Positions 47,248 through 54,974 of a stretch of 64,000 nucleotides of DNA are shown one piece after another (the first letter of the stretch is position 1; each line of letters opens with the position of its first letter). The stretch is taken from the NCBI GenBank assembly GCA_905221615.1, contig CAJNDT010005874.1, forward strand, positions 62,001-126,000. Reading direction: 5' to 3'. The notes beneath the pieces are model-generated. The model was not told the DNA's origin, searched no databases, and worked only from the letters and a program-made list of their open reading frames with translations. This DNA is from Symbiodinium sp. CCMP2592. Lineage: Eukaryota; Sar; Dinophyceae; Suessiales; Symbiodiniaceae. The translations under genes were made by a program, and so were the position numbers.

Positions 47248-47476
47248 ATAGTGGGGTACCCCCCCCCCCCCCGACCAAAAAAAAAAAATTCTATTTAATA
47301 TGGAACCGGTAGCCCCGGACAGGGGTCAGGGGTCGGTCTGAGTGGCAGGGAATTGGGAGGTGCCGGGGTTTGGGGGCTGGCTTGGGTGCAGGGTCTGCGG
47401 TTCTGCGCGACTGCGCGGTCGGGGGTCGGGGGGGTCTGGGCCAGCGCCTGAAACCCTGAACCCTGAACCCTAAACC
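47248..47476. other. Non-coding, poly-C/poly-A and G-rich sequence
   Basis: A run of C followed by a run of A at 47258-47290, then GGGGTCGG-rich sequence and CCCTGAACCCTAAACC telomere-like repeats. Confidence 0.6.
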
Positions 47477-47702
47477 TTAACGAATCCCAAACTCCTAGAC
47501 CCTATAACAAACCCTAAACCCTAAGCCCTAAACCCTTCCAAAGGGGGGTCGGTCCAGATTCGACCCAAAACTTAATTTTTTATACAAACTTTAGTACTGG
47601 AGATGCCTCTTTTGAGCTAGGGTCCAATCCCCGATTCGGCGGTTCACCCTAGCAGCCCCCCCCAATAATCAAGGTATAGTAGAATAGTAGTACAGTAGTA
47701 GT
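47477..47702 (+). repeat. Direct repeat R1 (likely LINE 3' end of a truncated copy)
   Basis: Nearly identical to 54472-54698: shared AACAAACCCT, CCAAAGGGGGGTCGGTCC, TATACAAACTTTAGTACTGG and GATTCGGCGGTTCACCC, then (TAG)n. Differences are few (for example GAGATGCC against GAGAGGCC). Confidence 0.9.
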
Positions 47703-47972
47703 ATAATGCTAGTGCAGTAGTACAATAGTAATACAACAGTAGTACAGTGGTAGTAGTACAATAATAGCACAATAGTAGTACAGTAGTAGTACGATTATAG
47801 TACCATAGTACAATAATAGTACAGTAGTAGTACAGTAGTAGTACAATAATAGTGCAGTAGTACAATAGTAATACAACAGTAGTACAGTGGTAGTACAATA
47901 GTAGTACAGTAGTAGTACCACAGTAGTACAGTAGTACAGTAGTAATACAGTAATAGTACAGAAATAGTACCA
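47690..47972. repeat. (AGT/TAC)n-like tail: AGTAGTACA repeats
   Basis: AGTAGTACAATAGTAGTACAG-type units over about 280 bases. It follows R1 and probably is a microsatellite tail of a LINE copy. ORFs here (Tyr/Leu/Val-rich) are artefacts. Confidence 0.85.
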
Positions 47973-48004: not shown

Positions 48005-48069
48005 CCCCAATAAGCAAAGCATAAAGCCAGCGCCTGAAACCCTAAACCCCGAACCCTAAACCCTAAAGA
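48005..48069. repeat. CCCTAAA telomere-like repeats at the LINE 5' junction
   Basis: GAAACCCTAAACCCCGAACCCTAAACCCTAAAG precedes the LINE start. The LINE 3' end is followed by CCCTAAAGAA, also present just before the start, so this may be a target duplication. Confidence 0.7.
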
Positions 48070-48122
48070 AAGGCGCTTCGGCTGCAAGTGCATGTTTGCA
48101 AGTTGTTTTGTCAGGACCTCCT

Positions 48123-51100
48123 GACCACACCGCCGCACCTAAAGGGTTCGGCCGTATCACTTCGGCTCGTTGCCGCCATGTCGTCCCAGCCTGGTTCAGG
48201 ATCCACACCGCAGGGCTTCGCCACCAATACTCTGGCAACGCAACAGTTTCTGGAGCAGCGTGCTACATATCAAACCGCGGAGTACAAGGCGGTTCAGGGC
48301 GCTTTTTTCGGCCCGCCGCGGGTCAAGCGTACTGCACCCACTCCGGTGCAAAGCGGCTTGACCACACCGCAGGAAGACTCCGTGGCAGATGAGGTTATGA
48401 GGGAGGCTGAGGAGCACGCAGAGCCACCGGAAGAGCGTAATTTGCTTACGCCTTTTTCTCTGCAGGACCAGGCCGCCTTGGAAGTTACCTTAGGCAGCTT
48501 GGGAGTCAACATCAACGACCAAAACGCCGTCCAGGCCTGGGGCCAAAGGCAGCCAACCAACAATGCCGAGATCTTCAACATGGTTCGTGCATACCATGAA
48601 AAAGTGATCCGGCCAGAGTACTACTCTTTGGTTTGCCAGCTGGAAGCGGGCCTGAAGGCAGTAGATGATCGCTGCTTTCAGTCAAAAAGGAGGTCGCATG
48701 GATGGCTTCGGAGAACAGGCTTTTGCAGAAACATGCCTGTGGTCTCCAGCTCTTGACCACAGGATGGCCGAATGCTCTGAAGCCTGCAGAACGAGTGTAT
48801 ATGATCTCGTGGATGGTTTCGCAAGTCCCTTCCTTGGTGACCTTTCTGAAGATGAGGGGCTATGTCTCCGACCACAACGCCTCGGAGCTGGAAAGGCACA
48901 TGAACGTTTTCGCCCAAGAACCGACCACAGTGCCTCAGTCGGAGGGGTTCTATTCCAGCATGACCTTTCTCAGCTTTAAGAGTTGGGACACGCGGTCTGC
49001 TTTTTTGAACCACTACGGTGGAAGTTCCGGGGTGCCAGTCTATAAGGACGAGAGCACCCCCATTCACAACAAGCATCTGAAGGTGGCACCTTGCAGTCCG
49101 CAGTGGCAGCGCAAGCTAGAGGCGCCGTTGCGTGTTATTTTAAATTGTGTGAACAAACACCCGGAACACAACGCCTCCTCCCGTCTCACCATTTTGTGGA
49201 AGACCCTCACGATTCTGGCTCCTCAGCAAGACGCTGAATTTCACGAGGACCAGACCGCCTGGGCAAGGCTTCACTATGGCCAGGAGGCAGGCGAGTTTGT
49301 TTGCAGGCTTGAGGTTGTTCCGGCTCTCCTCACAATTTTGAATGGCCCACCTTCGGAGTCCGATTCCAAGACCACATCGCTTTGGGAAGAGCAGTGGTAC
49401 CAAACGATGTGGGGGAATCATGCTGAGCTCGATCGAATGGATGCCGAAGCCTTTTCGAGTGCCAAAAAGGATGCAGTCCTTTCTGGAAAGGGCCTTCAGA
49501 AAGGAAAGGGCTAAAGGCACTGGTCTTCGGCCGCGGTGCATACTAGTGCTTACTCTCCGTATCCATTCGAGCTGCATTTTCAAGTTGTGGAAGCGGTCTA
49601 TTTTTCATGGGATGAGTTCTGTGATAAGTACAGAAAAGAAGACCGCAAGGTGGGTGACTACGAAGTGGCCACTGTACAGGGCCGCCCACCAGTGGGGATA
49701 GGGGCTGAGCTCCGATCCGACCACACCGCCACGGACTTTGCAAGTTTCGGCGCCACGCCAGCGGCTTCCACAGCCACGCCGGCGCAAGCCCCAGCCCCGA
49801 CCACACCGCAGACAAAGGGTGGGAAGGGTAAAGGATCCTGAAGTTTTGGTTCCCGAATTTTCGTGGCCCCGCTCGGCCCACAACGCCTTTGCCTGCAGGC
49901 TTTTGGGTTGAGCTTTCCCGACAAGGAGCTTGCAGCACCTTTTGAAATTTTTGAGTGCTCGCCCTTGTCCTGCAATCGGGCTTCGTGGTACTTTGGGAAA
50001 ATCCCGGAGGACCACACCGCCCCTCTCTCCGAATTTGCATGTTTCTCAGGTCTCGATTACAACGCCCTAGGCTCACCCGATAGCCCAAATCAGCTTACTT
50101 CCAAAAAGCGAAATAAGCTTATGCATATAGTCAACGGTAACACTGTCCTTTCACTAGCAGATCTTATCCCGAGCAACAGAACCACAATCTCGATAGCAAA
50201 GCTTCTGGAACAGAGACCTCAGGAATCCCAGTCGCAAGCGCAAGGTTACAGTAGAAGTTTCTTGCTGCAGTGCCGACAGACAAAAGAAGAAGGGTCGTGT
50301 CCGTACGTACCGATCACAACGCAAGCTTTCACCCCCAACAAGCCCAAGCCCTCCCGAACAGGTAGGCGAATTAAAATCAGAACGCGCGATGGAGTAGTTG
50401 TGATTTCTAAGAAACCACGACCACACCGCCTAAATTCAGTAATTCAGCTCCCAATTAATTCACACACACGCCGAAAACCGCCTCCACGAGGCGCGCCGGG
50501 ACCTCCCCCAGGGAGGGACGAAGAGTTTAACCCGAACAAGACGCGGGCACAAACCTCCGAGCGGGGTCCGGGACGCGCGGTGCGCCGCAGGGCGTATCGC
50601 CGCTGGATGCGAGGAGGTACAAAGGTACAGGTGAAGGAGCCGGGCCCTCCCCACCTTGCCCCGTCTCAGCCCCAACACGCCGCCCTTACCAGGGCCCAAT
50701 GGTTCAAGCAAAACATTCACTGGCAGGACCAGTTGAAAAGAAATAAAAAGAAAAAGTCGGTCAAGCATCCGACCACACCGCCTCTCCCGTATGATAGTAA
50801 GATAAAGGTAGGTTCGATCAATGTTCAGGGTTTCGCGGACACCCTAAAGCTTAAGAACGCCATTCTTATGATGCAGGAGCATAAGCTTGATGTTCTTATG
50901 TTATCCGAAACTAAAACCACGTCTTACTATTCGTATCAGTCAGAAAAGCATTTGGTGATACTTTCGGGCAACACAAAGGACAGGTATGCAGGAGTGGGTG
51001 CAATCATTGCGCCGCATCTTCGACCACACCTTTTAGATGTGTTGCAGGTTTCTACTAGATTGCTTCATTTGACTTTTCGGAAAAAGGGCGGTAACATTCA

Positions 51101-54100
51101 CATTGTAGGAGCATATGCCCCACACTCAGGACTGGAATATGAAGAGGTACGGGTCCCATTTTGGGATAGCCTCGAGGAACACATTGCCAAAATTCCCCAA
51201 CCCGAACCGGTCTATCTAGTAGGCGATTTCAATGTTAGGTTTCAGGCCCAACATGCTAATGATGAAGGCGTCACAGGTCCATTTACGTACGGTAAAGGTT
51301 CTAGGTTCATTGACCACAACGCGCAGTCCAACAGATCGCTGTGTGTTCGAACCATGCAACTTCTAGGTATGGTGGAGGCGGCCTCTTGGATCACGCCTAA
51401 CCCCATCCATCACATCACCTACAAAGATAAAGCAGCTCCACCCCCGGACTGGTCACAGTTTGTATTGGACCCTCTCCCCATGCAACAGATATACACCATG
51501 CTGCACCGTAAACTGGACCCTGACAAGGATCTTGCTCTTTCCACGGCAGCTACGGTAAGATCTTTTCTGGATCTCCCGGACCTACTTCCCCCACCCAAGA
51601 CAACACCGCAGATTGACCCGCTTCGTTTTCAGAGGTTGGATCATTTGTTCGTTCGAAAACAATGGCTTAATTCTGTACACCAATGCAGATCCAAGCTATA
51701 CACGGGTTTTCCCACGGATCACTACCTGGTGGTTTCGGAGATTAAGGTTCGCCTAGCAGCCAAACCACAACGCCCCCCTCGCACCCCAAAGCTTGAGCTA
51801 CACAATCCTACAGAACAGGAAAAACAGGAGTTTAACGCCATCTTCGGAGAACTTATACAGGAAAACCCCCCAGAACGAAACCTTCCCCCTCCAGACCACA
51901 CCGCTCCAATACACTACTTTACGGATGGATCAGGTTCTTCGGGTAGATGTTCTAAACACACCTCAGCCGGATGGGGTTGGTGTAGGCGTACTTCAGAAGG
52001 ATGGGAAGATGCTTACGGACCTGTAATCACAGACCCCGATCACAACGCGTATAGGGGAGCAGGCGTAGGCTCAAATAACACTGGGGAGGTATCAGCTATC
52101 GTGGAGGCTTTGCTCCACGCCCACCAACACTCGTATCACAACGTTCATATCCACACCGACAGCCAATGGTCCAAGAACGTCATCACAGGCAAGTGGCGGG
52201 CGCAACGCAACAAAACGCTTGTGAACATGGCGAAACACCTTTGCAAAATCGCGCCCATGCGTGTCACCTTCCATTGGATCAGAGCGCACAAAGGCAACGA
52301 AGGCAACGAGAGAGCGGATAAGCTCTCTAATCAGGGACGCAAGGCTAAGGACCGTCAAGGCACCACAGCGCAGCAACCAGAAGTCACCACCACCACAACG
52401 CCAATCCGGGAGGACGCTTTTACAGAGGTCCTAAAAGAAGCGGCTGCGCAAACCTTTGCAAACGAAACGCGCAGACGACGCACGCCGTGGATCACGGAAT
52501 CTACCCTCAACCTTCTACAGGACGCACGTGCTGCGGAAGCGCAGGGAGACCACAACGCAAAGCACAAGCGCAACGTTGCCAAACGATCCGCAAGAAAAGA
52601 CAAAGTTAAGTGGGTTCACGATCAATTAGTGGAGGACCCAAGCGCAGAACACAGAGGATTATGGAGCACAGTCCGTCGCCAGAAGGCAGGCTTTAGAGGC
52701 AAAAAATCTCACCTTGTGGTGGATAATAAACCAGTCCCCTGGAGCAAGACTCACCAAGCCTTTCGAGACCATCTGCAGAATACCCAATGGGCGGCACACG
52801 AGGACGCCACAGAAAGATCAAAAGCCTTAAATTCAAAACGCGCACTACGCCCTCCTTCACCTGACGAGTCTCCCTTCTTACTTGAGGACCTCCAATCAGC
52901 GATCAACAAGCTCAGGAAGCGCAAGGCACCAGGACCAGACCAAACCGCCAACGAACTCTTTCTTCTCTTAGACGATGAGAATCAAAAACTACTTCTAGAA
53001 TTTTACAACAAGATATGGGACGAGGAAGTTCCAGAAGAATGGAAAGAGGCCATAGTGGTTTCAATCTACAAAGGCAAAGGCAAGGACACTGACCCTGCCA
53101 ATTATCGCCCCATCTCACTTCTCAACACAATCTACAAAATCTTCGCCGCAATGTTGCAAACCAGACTTGCCACAACTCACGAGAAGAACTTGCGCAGTAC
53201 ACAGTATGGTTTCAGATCACACCGCGGAACGCAACAACCACTATTTGTTTTGAGACGATCAATGGAATGGGCGGAAATGACCAACAATCCCTTATATTAC
53301 CTTTTTCTGGATTGGAAACAAGCATTCGACTCACTTGACCACAACGCCATGTTGATTGCTTTGCAGCGCTTCGGGTTGCCCAACAAATCTCTAGCAGTAA
53401 TCTCCTCGATTTATAAGGATCCCACCTTTATCACCAAAGGAATTGACGACCACAACGCCAAAGGTAAGGTAGGAGCGGGAATTCGGCAGGGATGCCCCCT
53501 CAGCCCGTATTTGTTCATCATGGTACTTACAGTAATTTTGGAAGATGTTGATTGGGATCTGGCAAGTAGAGGAATAGCTAGGAATACTTGGTCGGCCACC
53601 CGCCCCACCTCAGATCTAGAGTATGCGGACGATACGCTTCTTATCGCCAGGACCACAACGCAACTCTCAGAAATCTTGCACTCGCTGGAAAGATGTTCTA
53701 GGCTCCATGGGATGCATTTGAATAAAGAAAAAACAGAACTTCTCGTGGATCCTCGAAGACCACAACCCAAACTTACTTTCGAAAACGGCGAAACAGTTCC
53801 GACCACAACGCAAATTAAGTACTTAGGATCGATGATAGCCTGGGAAAAACCTTTTGAAGCCGCATTTAGACATAGAGCAGCGGTAGCAGAAACCAGCTAC
53901 AAGAAACTCCGGCTTGTTTGGAACAGCTCCTTGCCTCGTAAGACCAAACTCCGCATATTCCAGTCTGTCTTTATCCCCACCTTAACCTACGGCCTCGACA
54001 CTCTCACCCTCACAGACAAGCAAATAGACAGAGTAGATGCCTACTACTTCCGATTCCTGCGACGAGTGGTTAATATCAAAGCATCATACTACTCCAGAAT

Positions 54101-54315
54101 CTCTAACCAAACAGTTTGGAGAACAGCCAACAACCCGAGAAAACCCTCAAGCTTCCTCCACAACGCCCAGCTTAAGCTCCTGCAGACACTCTACGCTAGC
54201 GACATTTCAGATCCATTCCACAATGTAGTGTTTACCGCTGCTTACAAGGATAGAATAGTCGTTACCGGCAGACGTAGAGGGATGAAAATGCCTTATTGGA
54301 TCGAGATCACAACGC
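48123..54315 (+). repeat. Interspersed GAYCACAMCGC motif in the LINE
   Basis: GACCACA(A/C)CGC starts at 48123, 48360, 48870, 49719, 49799, 50010, 50419, 50771, 51312, 51894, 52548, 53337, 53448, 53651 and 53801. GATCACA(A/C)CGC starts at 50312, 52038, 53215 and 54305. At least ten one- or two-mismatch relatives exist (for example 48923, 49248, 49370, 51599, 51763, 52937). In ORF2 the motif is read as DHTA/DHNA, TTP/TTQ or PHR/SHR depending on phase, and one copy is in the 5' leader. Confidence 0.9.
48178..49841 (+). CDS. LINE ORF1 (one shift, one in-frame stop)
   Basis: ATG 48178 (MSSQPGSGSTPQGFATN) reads to about 48690 (SLVCQLEAGLKAVDDRC). A -1 shift at TCAAAAAGG, or a lost A, joins it to the frame 48702-49514 (VAWMASENRLLQKHACGLQL ... 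WMVSQVPSLVTFLKMRG ... SEGFYSSMTFLSFKSWDTR). TAA at 49512-49514 interrupts; the same frame reopens (SPYPFELHFQVVEAVYFSWD) and ends TKGGKGKGS at 49841. No known RNA-binding domain (RRM or zinc knuckle) is visible, apart from the basic C-terminus. Position before ORF2 makes an RNA-chaperone role likely. The run of A at the shift could be a programmed frameshift or a mutation. Confidence 0.65.
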
Positions 54316-54461
54316 AAAGGCATTTTAAGAACCATTGGACCCAAAACCCTGGTAAAGGAATTCTAGGACCACACCTGGTATATGCCTCCATTAATCGAGA
54401 CCTGAAGAGTTCCTTTGAGCGAGCGCCGAAGCGCGCTGCGGAAAAGCGCGCAGGGCACTAG
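49863..54461 (+). CDS. LINE ORF2: endonuclease, RNase H, reverse transcriptase
   Basis: 1532 residues from a GTG; the true start is uncertain. After about 310 low-complexity residues comes an APE-like endonuclease: INVQGFADTLK (about 319), MLSETKT, VYLVGDFNVR and TDHYLVVSEI. RNase H follows (about 683-825), with FTDGSGSSG, NNTGEVSAIVEALL, HIHTDSQWSKN and GNERADKLSNQ: Asp, Glu, Asp and Asp all present. RT comes after it (about 1060-1300), with NYRPISLLNTIYKI, FLDWKQAFDSLDHNA (motif A), GIRQGCPLSPYLF (motif B) and EYADDTLLIART (motif C, Tyr 1254). The thumb region is typical (LTYGLDTLTLTDKQ). In LINEs that have RNase H it normally follows the RT, so the order here is reversed. The ORF is uninterrupted. 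Confidence 0.92.
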   Translation: MAPLGPQRLCLQAFGLSFPDKELAAPFEIFECSPLSCNRASWYFGKIPEDHTAPLSEFACFSGLDYNALGSPDSPNQLTSKKRNKLMHIVNGNTVLSLADLIPSNRTTISIAKLLEQRPQESQSQAQGYSRSFLLQCRQTKEEGSCPYVPITTQAFTPNKPKPSRTGRRIKIRTRDGVVVISKKPRPHRLNSVIQLPINSHTRRKPPPRGAPGPPPGRDEEFNPNKTRAQTSERGPGRAVRRRAYRRWMRGGTKVQVKEPGPPHLAPSQPQHAALTRAQWFKQNIHWQDQLKRNKKKKSVKHPTTPPLPYDSKIKVGSINVQGFADTLKLKNAILMMQEHKLDVLMLSETKTTSYYSYQSEKHLVILSGNTKDRYAGVGAIIAPHLRPHLLDVLQVSTRLLHLTFRKKGGNIHIVGAYAPHSGLEYEEVRVPFWDSLEEHIAKIPQPEPVYLVGDFNVRFQAQHANDEGVTGPFTYGKGSRFIDHNAQSNRSLCVRTMQLLGMVEAASWITPNPIHHITYKDKAAPPPDWSQFVLDPLPMQQIYTMLHRKLDPDKDLALSTAATVRSFLDLPDLLPPPKTTPQIDPLRFQRLDHLFVRKQWLNSVHQCRSKLYTGFPTDHYLVVSEIKVRLAAKPQRPPRTPKLELHNPTEQEKQEFNAIFGELIQENPPERNLPPPDHTAPIHYFTDGSGSSGRCSKHTSAGWGWCRRTSEGWEDAYGPVITDPDHNAYRGAGVGSNNTGEVSAIVEALLHAHQHSYHNVHIHTDSQWSKNVITGKWRAQRNKTLVNMAKHLCKIAPMRVTFHWIRAHKGNEGNERADKLSNQGRKAKDRQGTTAQQPEVTTTTTPIREDAFTEVLKEAAAQTFANETRRRRTPWITESTLNLLQDARAAEAQGDHNAKHKRNVAKRSARKDKVKWVHDQLVEDPSAEHRGLWSTVRRQKAGFRGKKSHLVVDNKPVPWSKTHQAFRDHLQNTQWAAHEDATERSKALNSKRALRPPSPDESPFLLEDLQSAINKLRKRKAPGPDQTANELFLLLDDENQKLLLEFYNKIWDEEVPEEWKEAIVVSIYKGKGKDTDPANYRPISLLNTIYKIFAAMLQTRLATTHEKNLRSTQYGFRSHRGTQQPLFVLRRSMEWAEMTNNPLYYLFLDWKQAFDSLDHNAMLIALQRFGLPNKSLAVISSIYKDPTFITKGIDDHNAKGKVGAGIRQGCPLSPYLFIMVLTVILEDVDWDLASRGIARNTWSATRPTSDLEYADDTLLIARTTTQLSEILHSLERCSRLHGMHLNKEKTELLVDPRRPQPKLTFENGETVPTTTQIKYLGSMIAWEKPFEAAFRHRAAVAETSYKKLRLVWNSSLPRKTKLRIFQSVFIPTLTYGLDTLTLTDKQIDRVDAYYFRFLRRVVNIKASYYSRISNQTVWRTANNPRKPSSFLHNAQLKLLQTLYASDISDPFHNVVFTAAYKDRIVVTGRRRGMKMPYWIEITTQRHFKNHWTQNPGKGILGPHLVYASINRDLKSSFERAPKRAAEKRAGH

Positions 54462-54471
54462 CAAAAAAAAC

Positions 54472-54698
54472 CCTAAAGAATCCTACACTCCTAAACCCTA
54501 TAACAAACCCTGAACCCTAAGCCCTAAACCCTTCCAAAGGGGGGTCGGTCCAGATTCGACCCAAAACTTAATTTTTTATACAAACTTTAGTACTGGAGAG
54601 GCCTCTTTTGAGCTAGGGTCCAATCCCCGATTCGGCGGTTCACCCTAGCAGCCCCCCCCAATAATCAAGGTATAGTAGAATAGTAGTACAGTAGTAGT
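54472..54698 (+). repeat. Direct repeat R2 (LINE 3' end)
   Basis: Copy of 47477-47702 immediately after the LINE ORF2 and its A-run, followed by a short (AGT)n and CCCCAATAAGC, which also follows the tail of R1 at about 48003. Confidence 0.9.
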
Positions 54699-54974
54699 AC
54701 AGTAGTAGTACAGATTTTCATTCCTGACGCCCCAATAAGCGAAACAATTCTGCAAGAGATTTCCGGGCTTCAGGGCCAGGGTTTTAGGGTTGGGTGGGGG
54801 TTTGGGTGGGGGTTTAGGTCGTGGCTGCCTTAAGATTGACCATCAGCAAATAGCACAGCCCCGCCACCAAAAAATCACCCCAGCCAAAAAAAACGCATTA
54901 ATTAGAACAAGCCAATTTTTTTGTCAGATTCGGAATTAGCCCCGGAGCCGACGCATTAAAAGAGCCCATATTCC
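54699..54974. other. Non-coding sequence inside the TIR block
   Basis: TTTAGGG-like words (GTTTTAGGGTTGGG) and an A-run region (CAAAAAATCACC, CCAAAAAAAACGC). No gene. Confidence 0.5.

Follow-up and report, generated by a model that had tools for sequence, protein, structure and literature searches.

A retrotransposon of the dinoflagellate Symbiodinium sp. CCMP2592 carries an 11-nt word, GAYCACAMCGC, about once every 200 nt on its sense strand, in all codon phases. The element is a long interspersed nuclear element (LINE) with two open reading frames (ORF1 and ORF2), in a stretch of 64,000 nucleotides (assembly GCA_905221615.1, contig CAJNDT010005874.1, positions 62,001 to 126,000 of the forward strand) that we call the window. 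Related LINE families in the same genome carry their own dialects of the word. The best explanation, which we consider probable, is that a protein made by the element, most likely the ORF1 product (ORF1p), reads the word on the sense RNA and thereby selects RNA of its own family.

GAYCACAMCGC occurs 19 times in the window, always on the + strand and within 48123-54315, against a mean of 0.10 and a maximum of 1 in dinucleotide shuffles of the window. An earlier, sequence-only reading of this DNA had reported 19 exact sense copies and at least ten near copies, and both counts hold: the element has 30 sense sites with at most one mismatch to the degenerate form GRYYACWMCGC (the 19 exact words plus 11 near words, all on the sense strand) and 0 antisense sites. 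The single copy it had placed in the untranslated leader does precede ORF1; a further 8 sites are in ORF1 and 21 in ORF2. We also recovered the mixture of reading phases that it described, with the 14 exact words in ORF2 read as DHTA/DHNA (7), TTP/TTQ (5) and PHR (2). The remaining 57.6 kb of the window holds 17 sites (at most one mismatch) on the + strand and 6 on the - strand, close to the random level (calculated expectation roughly 10 per strand). The degenerate form was drawn up after the families had been seen; circularity was guarded against by the antisense count, by shuffles scored with the same word and by a de novo 11-mer test. The sites in the window's LINE are as follows:

48123..48133, + strand: word GACCACACCGC, leader
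48360..48370, + strand: word GACCACACCGC, ORF1
48517..48527, + strand: near word GACCAAAACGC, ORF1
48870..48880, + strand: word GACCACAACGC, ORF1
49164..49174, + strand: near word GAACACAACGC, ORF1
49248..49258, + strand: near word GACCAGACCGC, ORF1
49370..49380, + strand: near word GACCACATCGC, ORF1
49719..49729, + strand: word GACCACACCGC, ORF1
49799..49809, + strand: word GACCACACCGC, ORF1
49876..49886, + strand: near word GCCCACAACGC, ORF2 start
50010..50020, + strand: word GACCACACCGC, ORF2
50055..50065, + strand: near word GATTACAACGC, ORF2
50312..50322, + strand: word GATCACAACGC, ORF2
50419..50429, + strand: word GACCACACCGC, ORF2
50771..50781, + strand: word GACCACACCGC, ORF2, alignment column 1148, with at most one mismatch in 22 of 23 aligned loci
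51312..51322, + strand: word GACCACAACGC, ORF2, column 1689
51599..51609, + strand: near word GACAACACCGC, ORF2
51763..51773, + strand: near word AACCACAACGC, ORF2
51894..51904, + strand: word GACCACACCGC, ORF2
52038..52048, + strand: word GATCACAACGC, ORF2, column 2493
52391..52401, + strand: near word CACCACAACGC, ORF2
52548..52558, + strand: word GACCACAACGC, ORF2
52938..52948, + strand: near word GACCAAACCGC, ORF2
53215..53225, + strand: word GATCACACCGC, ORF2, column 3727
53337..53347, + strand: word GACCACAACGC, ORF2, column 3852
53448..53458, + strand: word GACCACAACGC, ORF2, column 3963
53651..53661, + strand: word GACCACAACGC, ORF2, column 4166
53758..53768, + strand: near word GACCACAACCC, ORF2
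53801..53811, + strand: word GACCACAACGC, ORF2, column 4316
54305..54315, + strand: word GATCACAACGC, ORF2

The saturation extends across a clade of related LINEs. DNA-level tests cover this one genome (1,098 Mb), in which the window's family is represented by near-identical copies, the longest of them at 95-99 percent DNA identity, and divergent families are found at 70-76, 51-56 and 40-42 percent protein identity. Our sample comprised 23 ORF2 loci from about 14 families that are not independent: L014-L018 are near-identical, and L019/L020, L025/L034, L026/L031, L027/L032 and L041/L043 are close pairs. Fourteen representative loci were used for the dialect, antisense/flank and spacing tests. 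Each of the 23 loci has 10-23 sense sites and no antisense site at up to one mismatch from GRYYACWMCGC, summing to 390 versus 0, and all 23 exceed every one of 200 synonymous-codon shuffles in sense sites. The de novo test agreed: in 22 of the 23 loci the most frequent 11-mer surpassed all 100 synonymous shuffles, L040 being the tied exception, and when 9-mers are counted L042 is level with its shuffles. Position-weight models fitted per locus describe an 11-nt word in all three codon phases, with flanks adding at most about 0.7 bit at single positions. Other family members retain the words, and neither of the two outcomes that the sequence-only reading had named as refuting it was observed.

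Outside the elements the word is not unusually common. GACCACAMCGC was found 1248 times genome-wide versus 1037 times for the backward control; 263 of the 1248 lie inside the sampled LINE loci, which total about 0.2 Mb, and the 985 elsewhere are near the control, showing no excess outside the sampled LINE loci. Around 18 of the ORF2 loci, the 1500 bases upstream, on the ORF1 side, contain 0-8 sense and 0-1 antisense sites and the 1500 bases downstream 0-5 sense sites, mostly where the match had stopped short of the ORF2 end. These distributions bear on a function at the DNA level, namely a site at which a DNA-binding protein would act in chromatin, recombination or insertion targeting. The word is present in genomic copies too, as such a site would be, and dinoflagellate chromatin is unusual, but a duplex DNA site would usually tolerate both orientations and the word is confined to the element, and we consider this account very unlikely. 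The sense-only orientation suggests that the word is read on RNA or on a single strand.

Comparison with distant LINE clades rests on proteins. Among the 120 ORF2 relatives listed of 421 found in 7994 scored candidates, peptides derived from the word are frequent in most of P0001-P0086 (at least 40 percent identity), weaker in the group at 40-44 percent identity and present at about chance level in the more distant LINEs P0092 and P0094-P0120 (28-35 percent identity); P0093 (40 percent, partial) is above chance. An organism name accompanies 15 of 116 ORF1 relatives, and all 15 are Symbiodinium, including S. microadriaticum, S. necroappetens, S. natans and S. pilosum. No relatives were found when sought in viral and prokaryote contigs. 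Two marks of a dinoflagellate host are present in the assembly: the dinoflagellate spliced leader, which occurs 429 times while its backward control does not occur at all, and DVNP, with 25 matches against none across 14 control genomes of prokaryotes. Spliced-leader sequences also lie within a few kb of two word-bearing places, L011 (C113:1764667) and C36:1346416. Strain CCMP2592 is named S. tridacnidorum in a passage of PMC8045281.

One might invoke ordinary codon bias or the recurrence of a protein motif, since DHTA/DHNA peptides are frequent. The same letters, however, are held in all three frames beyond protein and codon expectation, and the synonymous shuffles refute this account, which we regard as practically untenable. 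Codon choice within the word is correspondingly strict: in ten families, the T codon inside DH[NT]A is ACC in 34 of 34 cases versus 333 of 976 elsewhere, and the N codon is AAC in 15 of 15 versus 349 of 529. Among five near-identical copies, 4 of 71 third codon positions vary in words compared to 277 of 1393 outside (p = 0.0017). Over 90 ordered pairs of ten families, codons for the same amino acid are identical in 1419 of 2099 cases in words (0.68) versus 21601 of 56461 others (0.38), a comparison that defines sites in one family only, the version with sites in both families being biased by site choice. Codon-preserving shuffles, codon choice inside the word and the cross-frame dialect concordance described below all bear out the view of the sequence-only reading that protein selection is insufficient and that the signal acts on DNA or RNA.

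Word density is kept between families while individual sites turn over. The number of sites in common with the window's family falls from 15 of 21 at 71 percent identity to 5-9 at 51-55 percent and 1-3 at 39-41 percent. Where a relative lacks a site, an indel was found within six codons in 63 of 723 site-by-relative comparisons (8.7 percent versus a background of 4.3 percent), an excess that may come from softer regions. Since the other 660 comparisons show no nearby indel, most sites arose by substitution; an insertion or cassette origin of the words was rejected on the same count, and the sequence-biased insertion process that had been suggested for them finds no support. Sites are also more evenly spaced than random positions, significantly so in 10 of 14 families (p < 0.05) and with a lower coefficient of variation in 13 of 14. 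The combined p of 2e-9 is overstated, since some sites are common to several families.

The families differ in the dialect they use, with GACCACAACGC, GACCACACCGC, GGCTACACCGC and GACTACTCCGC as forms found across them. At position 8, L023 has A in 15 of 15 sites and L028 in 13 of 15, whereas L026 and L030 have C throughout (13 of 13 and 11 of 11 sites); position 7 separates L040, with T in all 18 sites, from L039, with A in all 17. At homologous sites the letters often track the family, even where the amino acid changes. Heterogeneity within families at positions 2, 4, 7 and 8 was below that of all 2000 within-column permutations, narrowly at position 2, and in leave-one-out prediction family outperformed site at positions 4, 7 and 8; together these results place the dialect signal mainly at positions 4, 7 and 8. 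Dialects are concordant between frames. Among ORF2 proteins (58 of 91 typed), 17 of 19 that are DHN-rich are also TTT-rich and 39 of 39 that are DHT-rich are also TTP-rich; among ORF1 proteins (66 of 116 typed), DHN/TTT agreement is 26 of 31 and DHT/TTP agreement 33 of 35, all figures that ignore the relatedness of the proteins. At least 4 dialect switches fall on the ORF2 tree (77 rows, 49 typed) and 3 on the ORF1 tree (72 rows, 44 typed), with a second A-type clade formed by L028/P0034 in the former and P0167/P0172/P0194 in the latter.

Two further observations concern dialects. The group at 40 percent identity (L039-L043) is more varied, with GGCTACACCGC, GGCTACTCCKC, GACTACTCCGC and GGCTAAACCGC, and mixtures inside L040 and L042. 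In the window's copy, the 5' half holds most of the exact C-type words and the 3' half most of the A-type words (9 versus 10 sites, Mann-Whitney p = 0.016), a split that suggests a recombinant or an ongoing dialect change.

We propose that the word serves as a family-specific recognition site on the sense RNA of the LINE that carries it. A protein encoded by the element, most likely ORF1p, would bind this RNA at many fairly evenly placed points (30 in the window's element), coat it and select it for reverse transcription, ignoring host mRNA and the RNAs of sister families; the benefit would be self-selection, or cis preference. The reader is probably element-encoded because families within one nucleus use different dialects, and ORF1p fits as a coat since even spacing suits coating. 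In two-ORF LINEs generally, the ORF1 product is the protein that coats the RNA, which makes it the obvious candidate here. A binding site for the element's own proteins, or a packaging tag, was among the possibilities that the sequence-only reading had listed; it is the best fit of that list, although it remains putative. In broader terms, dinoflagellate retrotransposons may write an address into their coding RNA that is read by a coat-like ORF1 protein co-drifting with the word, with dialects keeping the families' RNAs apart, a proposition to which we give about an even chance.

The ORF2 product (ORF2p) might be the reader instead, for example through its basic N-terminal part, with the words used for template choice in an element that has almost no 3' untranslated region (UTR) to serve as a recognition tail. 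The short A-run directly after the stop codon, which leaves such a tail apparently missing, and a long basic-residue-rich segment seen in the ORF2 translation ahead of its APE domain would agree with this. Template choice by the reverse transcriptase should, however, need few sites near the 3' end, and the words span leader, ORF1 and ORF2; we rate an ORF2p reader as unlikely.

A host RNA-binding protein of the PPR or PUF type could also read the word, and the element would exploit this reader to have its RNA exported, stabilised, localised or translated. Modular RNA readers of hosts are well matched to unstructured words as short as some 11 nt. The legend of a figure on the most abundant domains of this host names PPR as one of them (PMC8045281). 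On the other side, one host factor would be insufficient because different dialects coexist in one genome, so that several matched host readers would be required for the co-resident families, and the word count outside the sampled LINE loci is near the control. We therefore think a host reader quite improbable.

Mutational drive offers a different kind of account, in which cDNA synthesis starts at near-matches from a short RNA primer whose own sequence thereby enters the copy, turning near-words into words. It would yield sense-only substitutions in all frames and concerted dialect changes, but it does not predict even spacing, and a primer supplied by the host and common to all families would leave the same word in each of them, which is not seen. 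In addition, no tRNA 5' end matching the main dialects was present among the tRNAs examined. Drive of this kind seems to us a very remote prospect.

Base pairing, either with a small RNA (a tRNA fragment or small interfering RNA) or with the element itself, is extremely unlikely in our judgement. The complement of the word family, GCGKWGTRGYC, resembles the start of a tRNA gene up to the D-arm, and the 5' end of host tRNA-Met pairs partly with the GGCTACTCCGC dialect. Our tRNA search, which was not exhaustive, covered 63 scored matches of 46,875 candidates, ARAGORN on 10 loci and inspection of six pattern places; the tRNA-like pattern has 156 genome matches versus 113 in the control (about 100 places among the matches listed). 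In this partial set no tRNA was complementary to the main dialects, and complementarity to tRNA was rejected as a candidate, with tRNA-Met the one tRNA partly matching one dialect. Self-pairing was rejected as well, as the element has no full anti-word (best 8-10 of 11 pairs, G-U allowed). Pairing with tRNA or within the element thus gained little support from this partial search. Antisense words with at most one mismatch are absent from the 14 families, versus 4.0 +/- 2.0 expected from synonymous shuffles, which counts against pairing; with at most two mismatches there is no difference (56 versus 63.0 +/- 6.7). The missing antisense near-words hint at avoidance of self-pairing.

Several results weigh against ORF1p as a reader of family-specific words. 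ORF1 has no convincing RNA-binding domain, with below-threshold matches only: one to a dsRNA editase chain (E 0.02, one sequence, not recovered with a profile) and one to the "RNA binding Region" PF17208 (E 0.015 in 1 of 72 ORF1 members). For L1 ORF1p, a passage of PMC10202459 cites Kolosha and Martin (2003) for RNA binding that lacks sequence specificity. Neither the window's family (14 A, 7 C) nor L019 (10 C, 7 A) is uniform at position 8, and site outpredicts family at positions 2 and 3 in the leave-one-out test. The 3-4 dialect switches that can be counted are too few for significance: the independent pairs for ORF2 (n = 4) gave 2-3 in the same direction, 1-2 without difference and 0 opposite, and those for ORF1 (n = 3) about 1, 2 and 0, respectively. 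The 8 candidate specificity columns in ORF1 barely exceed those of 11 control clades (1-6), and three of the 8 are in or adjoin word sites. Even spacing is absent in L037 and not significant in L026, L041 and L042, and predicted accessibility of the word is mixed, its median exceeding that of matched controls in 5 of 7 families and falling below it in the other 2. Separately, ORF1 residues 241-242 differ in both A-type clades, a lead only, given that the column total is near controls.

The identification of the element as a LINE, made at first from the letters of the window, was confirmed by Pfam matches in ORF2 to an APE-type endonuclease, RNase H and reverse transcriptase, together with ORF1 upstream and an A-run at the 3' end; no long terminal repeats were seen in the sequence around it. 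The element and its parts are:

48071..54470, + strand: LINE element; 5' end from sequence in common with the C109 copy, 3' end a short A-run directly past the ORF2 stop
48178..49841, + strand: ORF1 region, candidate RNA-binding protein
49863..54461, + strand: ORF2, 1532 aa, open; APE, RNase H and reverse transcriptase
50814..51665, + strand: APE-type endonuclease domain (Exo_endo_phos, PF03372), ORF2 residues 318-601
51915..52337, + strand: RNase H domain (PF00075), between APE and reverse transcriptase, ORF2 residues 685-825
53088..53831, + strand: reverse transcriptase domain (RVT_1, PF00078), ORF2 residues 1076-1323

ORF1 is intact in the C109 copy (554 aa from its ATG) and disrupted in the window by a frame change near 48.7 kb and an in-frame stop near 49.51 kb. 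Beyond the window's copy, an A-run after the stop is clear in 12 of 19 3' flanks, and several of the rest come from loci whose match did not extend to the stop. A candidate 13-bp target-site duplication, aaaccctaaagaa, is present at 48058-48070 and 54468-54480, in a target that is itself repetitive. A 246-bp direct repeat (95 percent identical) flanks the LINE at 47472-47717 and 54468-54713, its upstream copy ending 350 bp short of the LINE 5' end; with the repeat on both sides, the LINE lies inside a duplicated repeat unit. Degenerate CCCTAAA (telomere-type) arrays often surround family copies or their nearest relatives (window 48020-48075 and 54465-54530, L009, L015, L016, L019, L020). Downstream, CCCTAAA matches per 200 nt number 4-21 in L015, L016, L019 and L020, 3-5 in L026, L027 and L028, 0 in L017 and 0-1 in most other loci, against a background of 0.04 (window 1-46000), and part of the clade may therefore have a target preference. 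As a side observation on the assembly, lone tRNA genes on contig C5051 (more than 2.6 Mb; L044-L046, L048), which we take to be bacterial-looking, suggest bacterial sequence within it.

How LINE proteins pick their own RNA is an open question. LINE-1 likewise has two ORFs and proteins that act on the RNA encoding them; passages of PMC10202459 call its mechanism of cis preference unclear and offer an explanation without sequence-specific binding. The LINE studied here differs from that picture in that a written word could do the selecting, where L1 ORF1p is cited without sequence specificity. A LINE clade that marks its RNA with a family-specific word at intervals of about 200 nt would open sequence-coded self-recognition to direct test, since word and protein both come in natural variants. 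In such a clade a second, RNA-level code would run through all reading frames of two proteins, altering amino acids when the dialect changes. A keyword search of the open PMC literature, with subscription papers outside its scope, found no comparable retrotransposon word system.

Among known Symbiodinium elements, SymbioLINE-Dnmt is also a LINE with two ORFs, and Exo_endo_phos, RVT_1 and RNase_H are among the domains in a figure legend on DNMT-bearing retrotransposons in PMC5890265. Its ORF1 is a cytosine methyltransferase and its 5' and 3' UTRs are conserved, according to passages of that paper, whereas the LINE in the window has almost no 3' UTR, and no Pfam match to a cytosine methyltransferase was obtained in the C109 ORF1 or in 72 ORF1 relatives. 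By analogy, the word would work most like the dialects of the DNA uptake sequence (DUS) of Neisseriaceae and the dispersed packaging signals of viruses, as a member of neither. The DUS, read by ComP, is likewise a short, many-copy word with lineage dialects that serves as a mark of self; some dialects differ by one or two bases, and ComP of N. subflava prefers its own variant (passages of PMC3630211 and PMC3868556). The DUS acts in bacterial genomic DNA and in uptake, whereas the LINE word is sense-only, belongs to a eukaryotic retrotransposon, has several dialects per genome and has a candidate reader only. The packaging signals of single-stranded RNA viruses, as described in part of PMC6281560, are many dispersed sites with a common motif recognised by the virus's own coat protein, much as a reader encoded by the element itself is proposed here. 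Those signals are sequence-structure motifs, whereas the LINE word is a linear 11 nt with little flanking signal, no clear structure and no known capsid.

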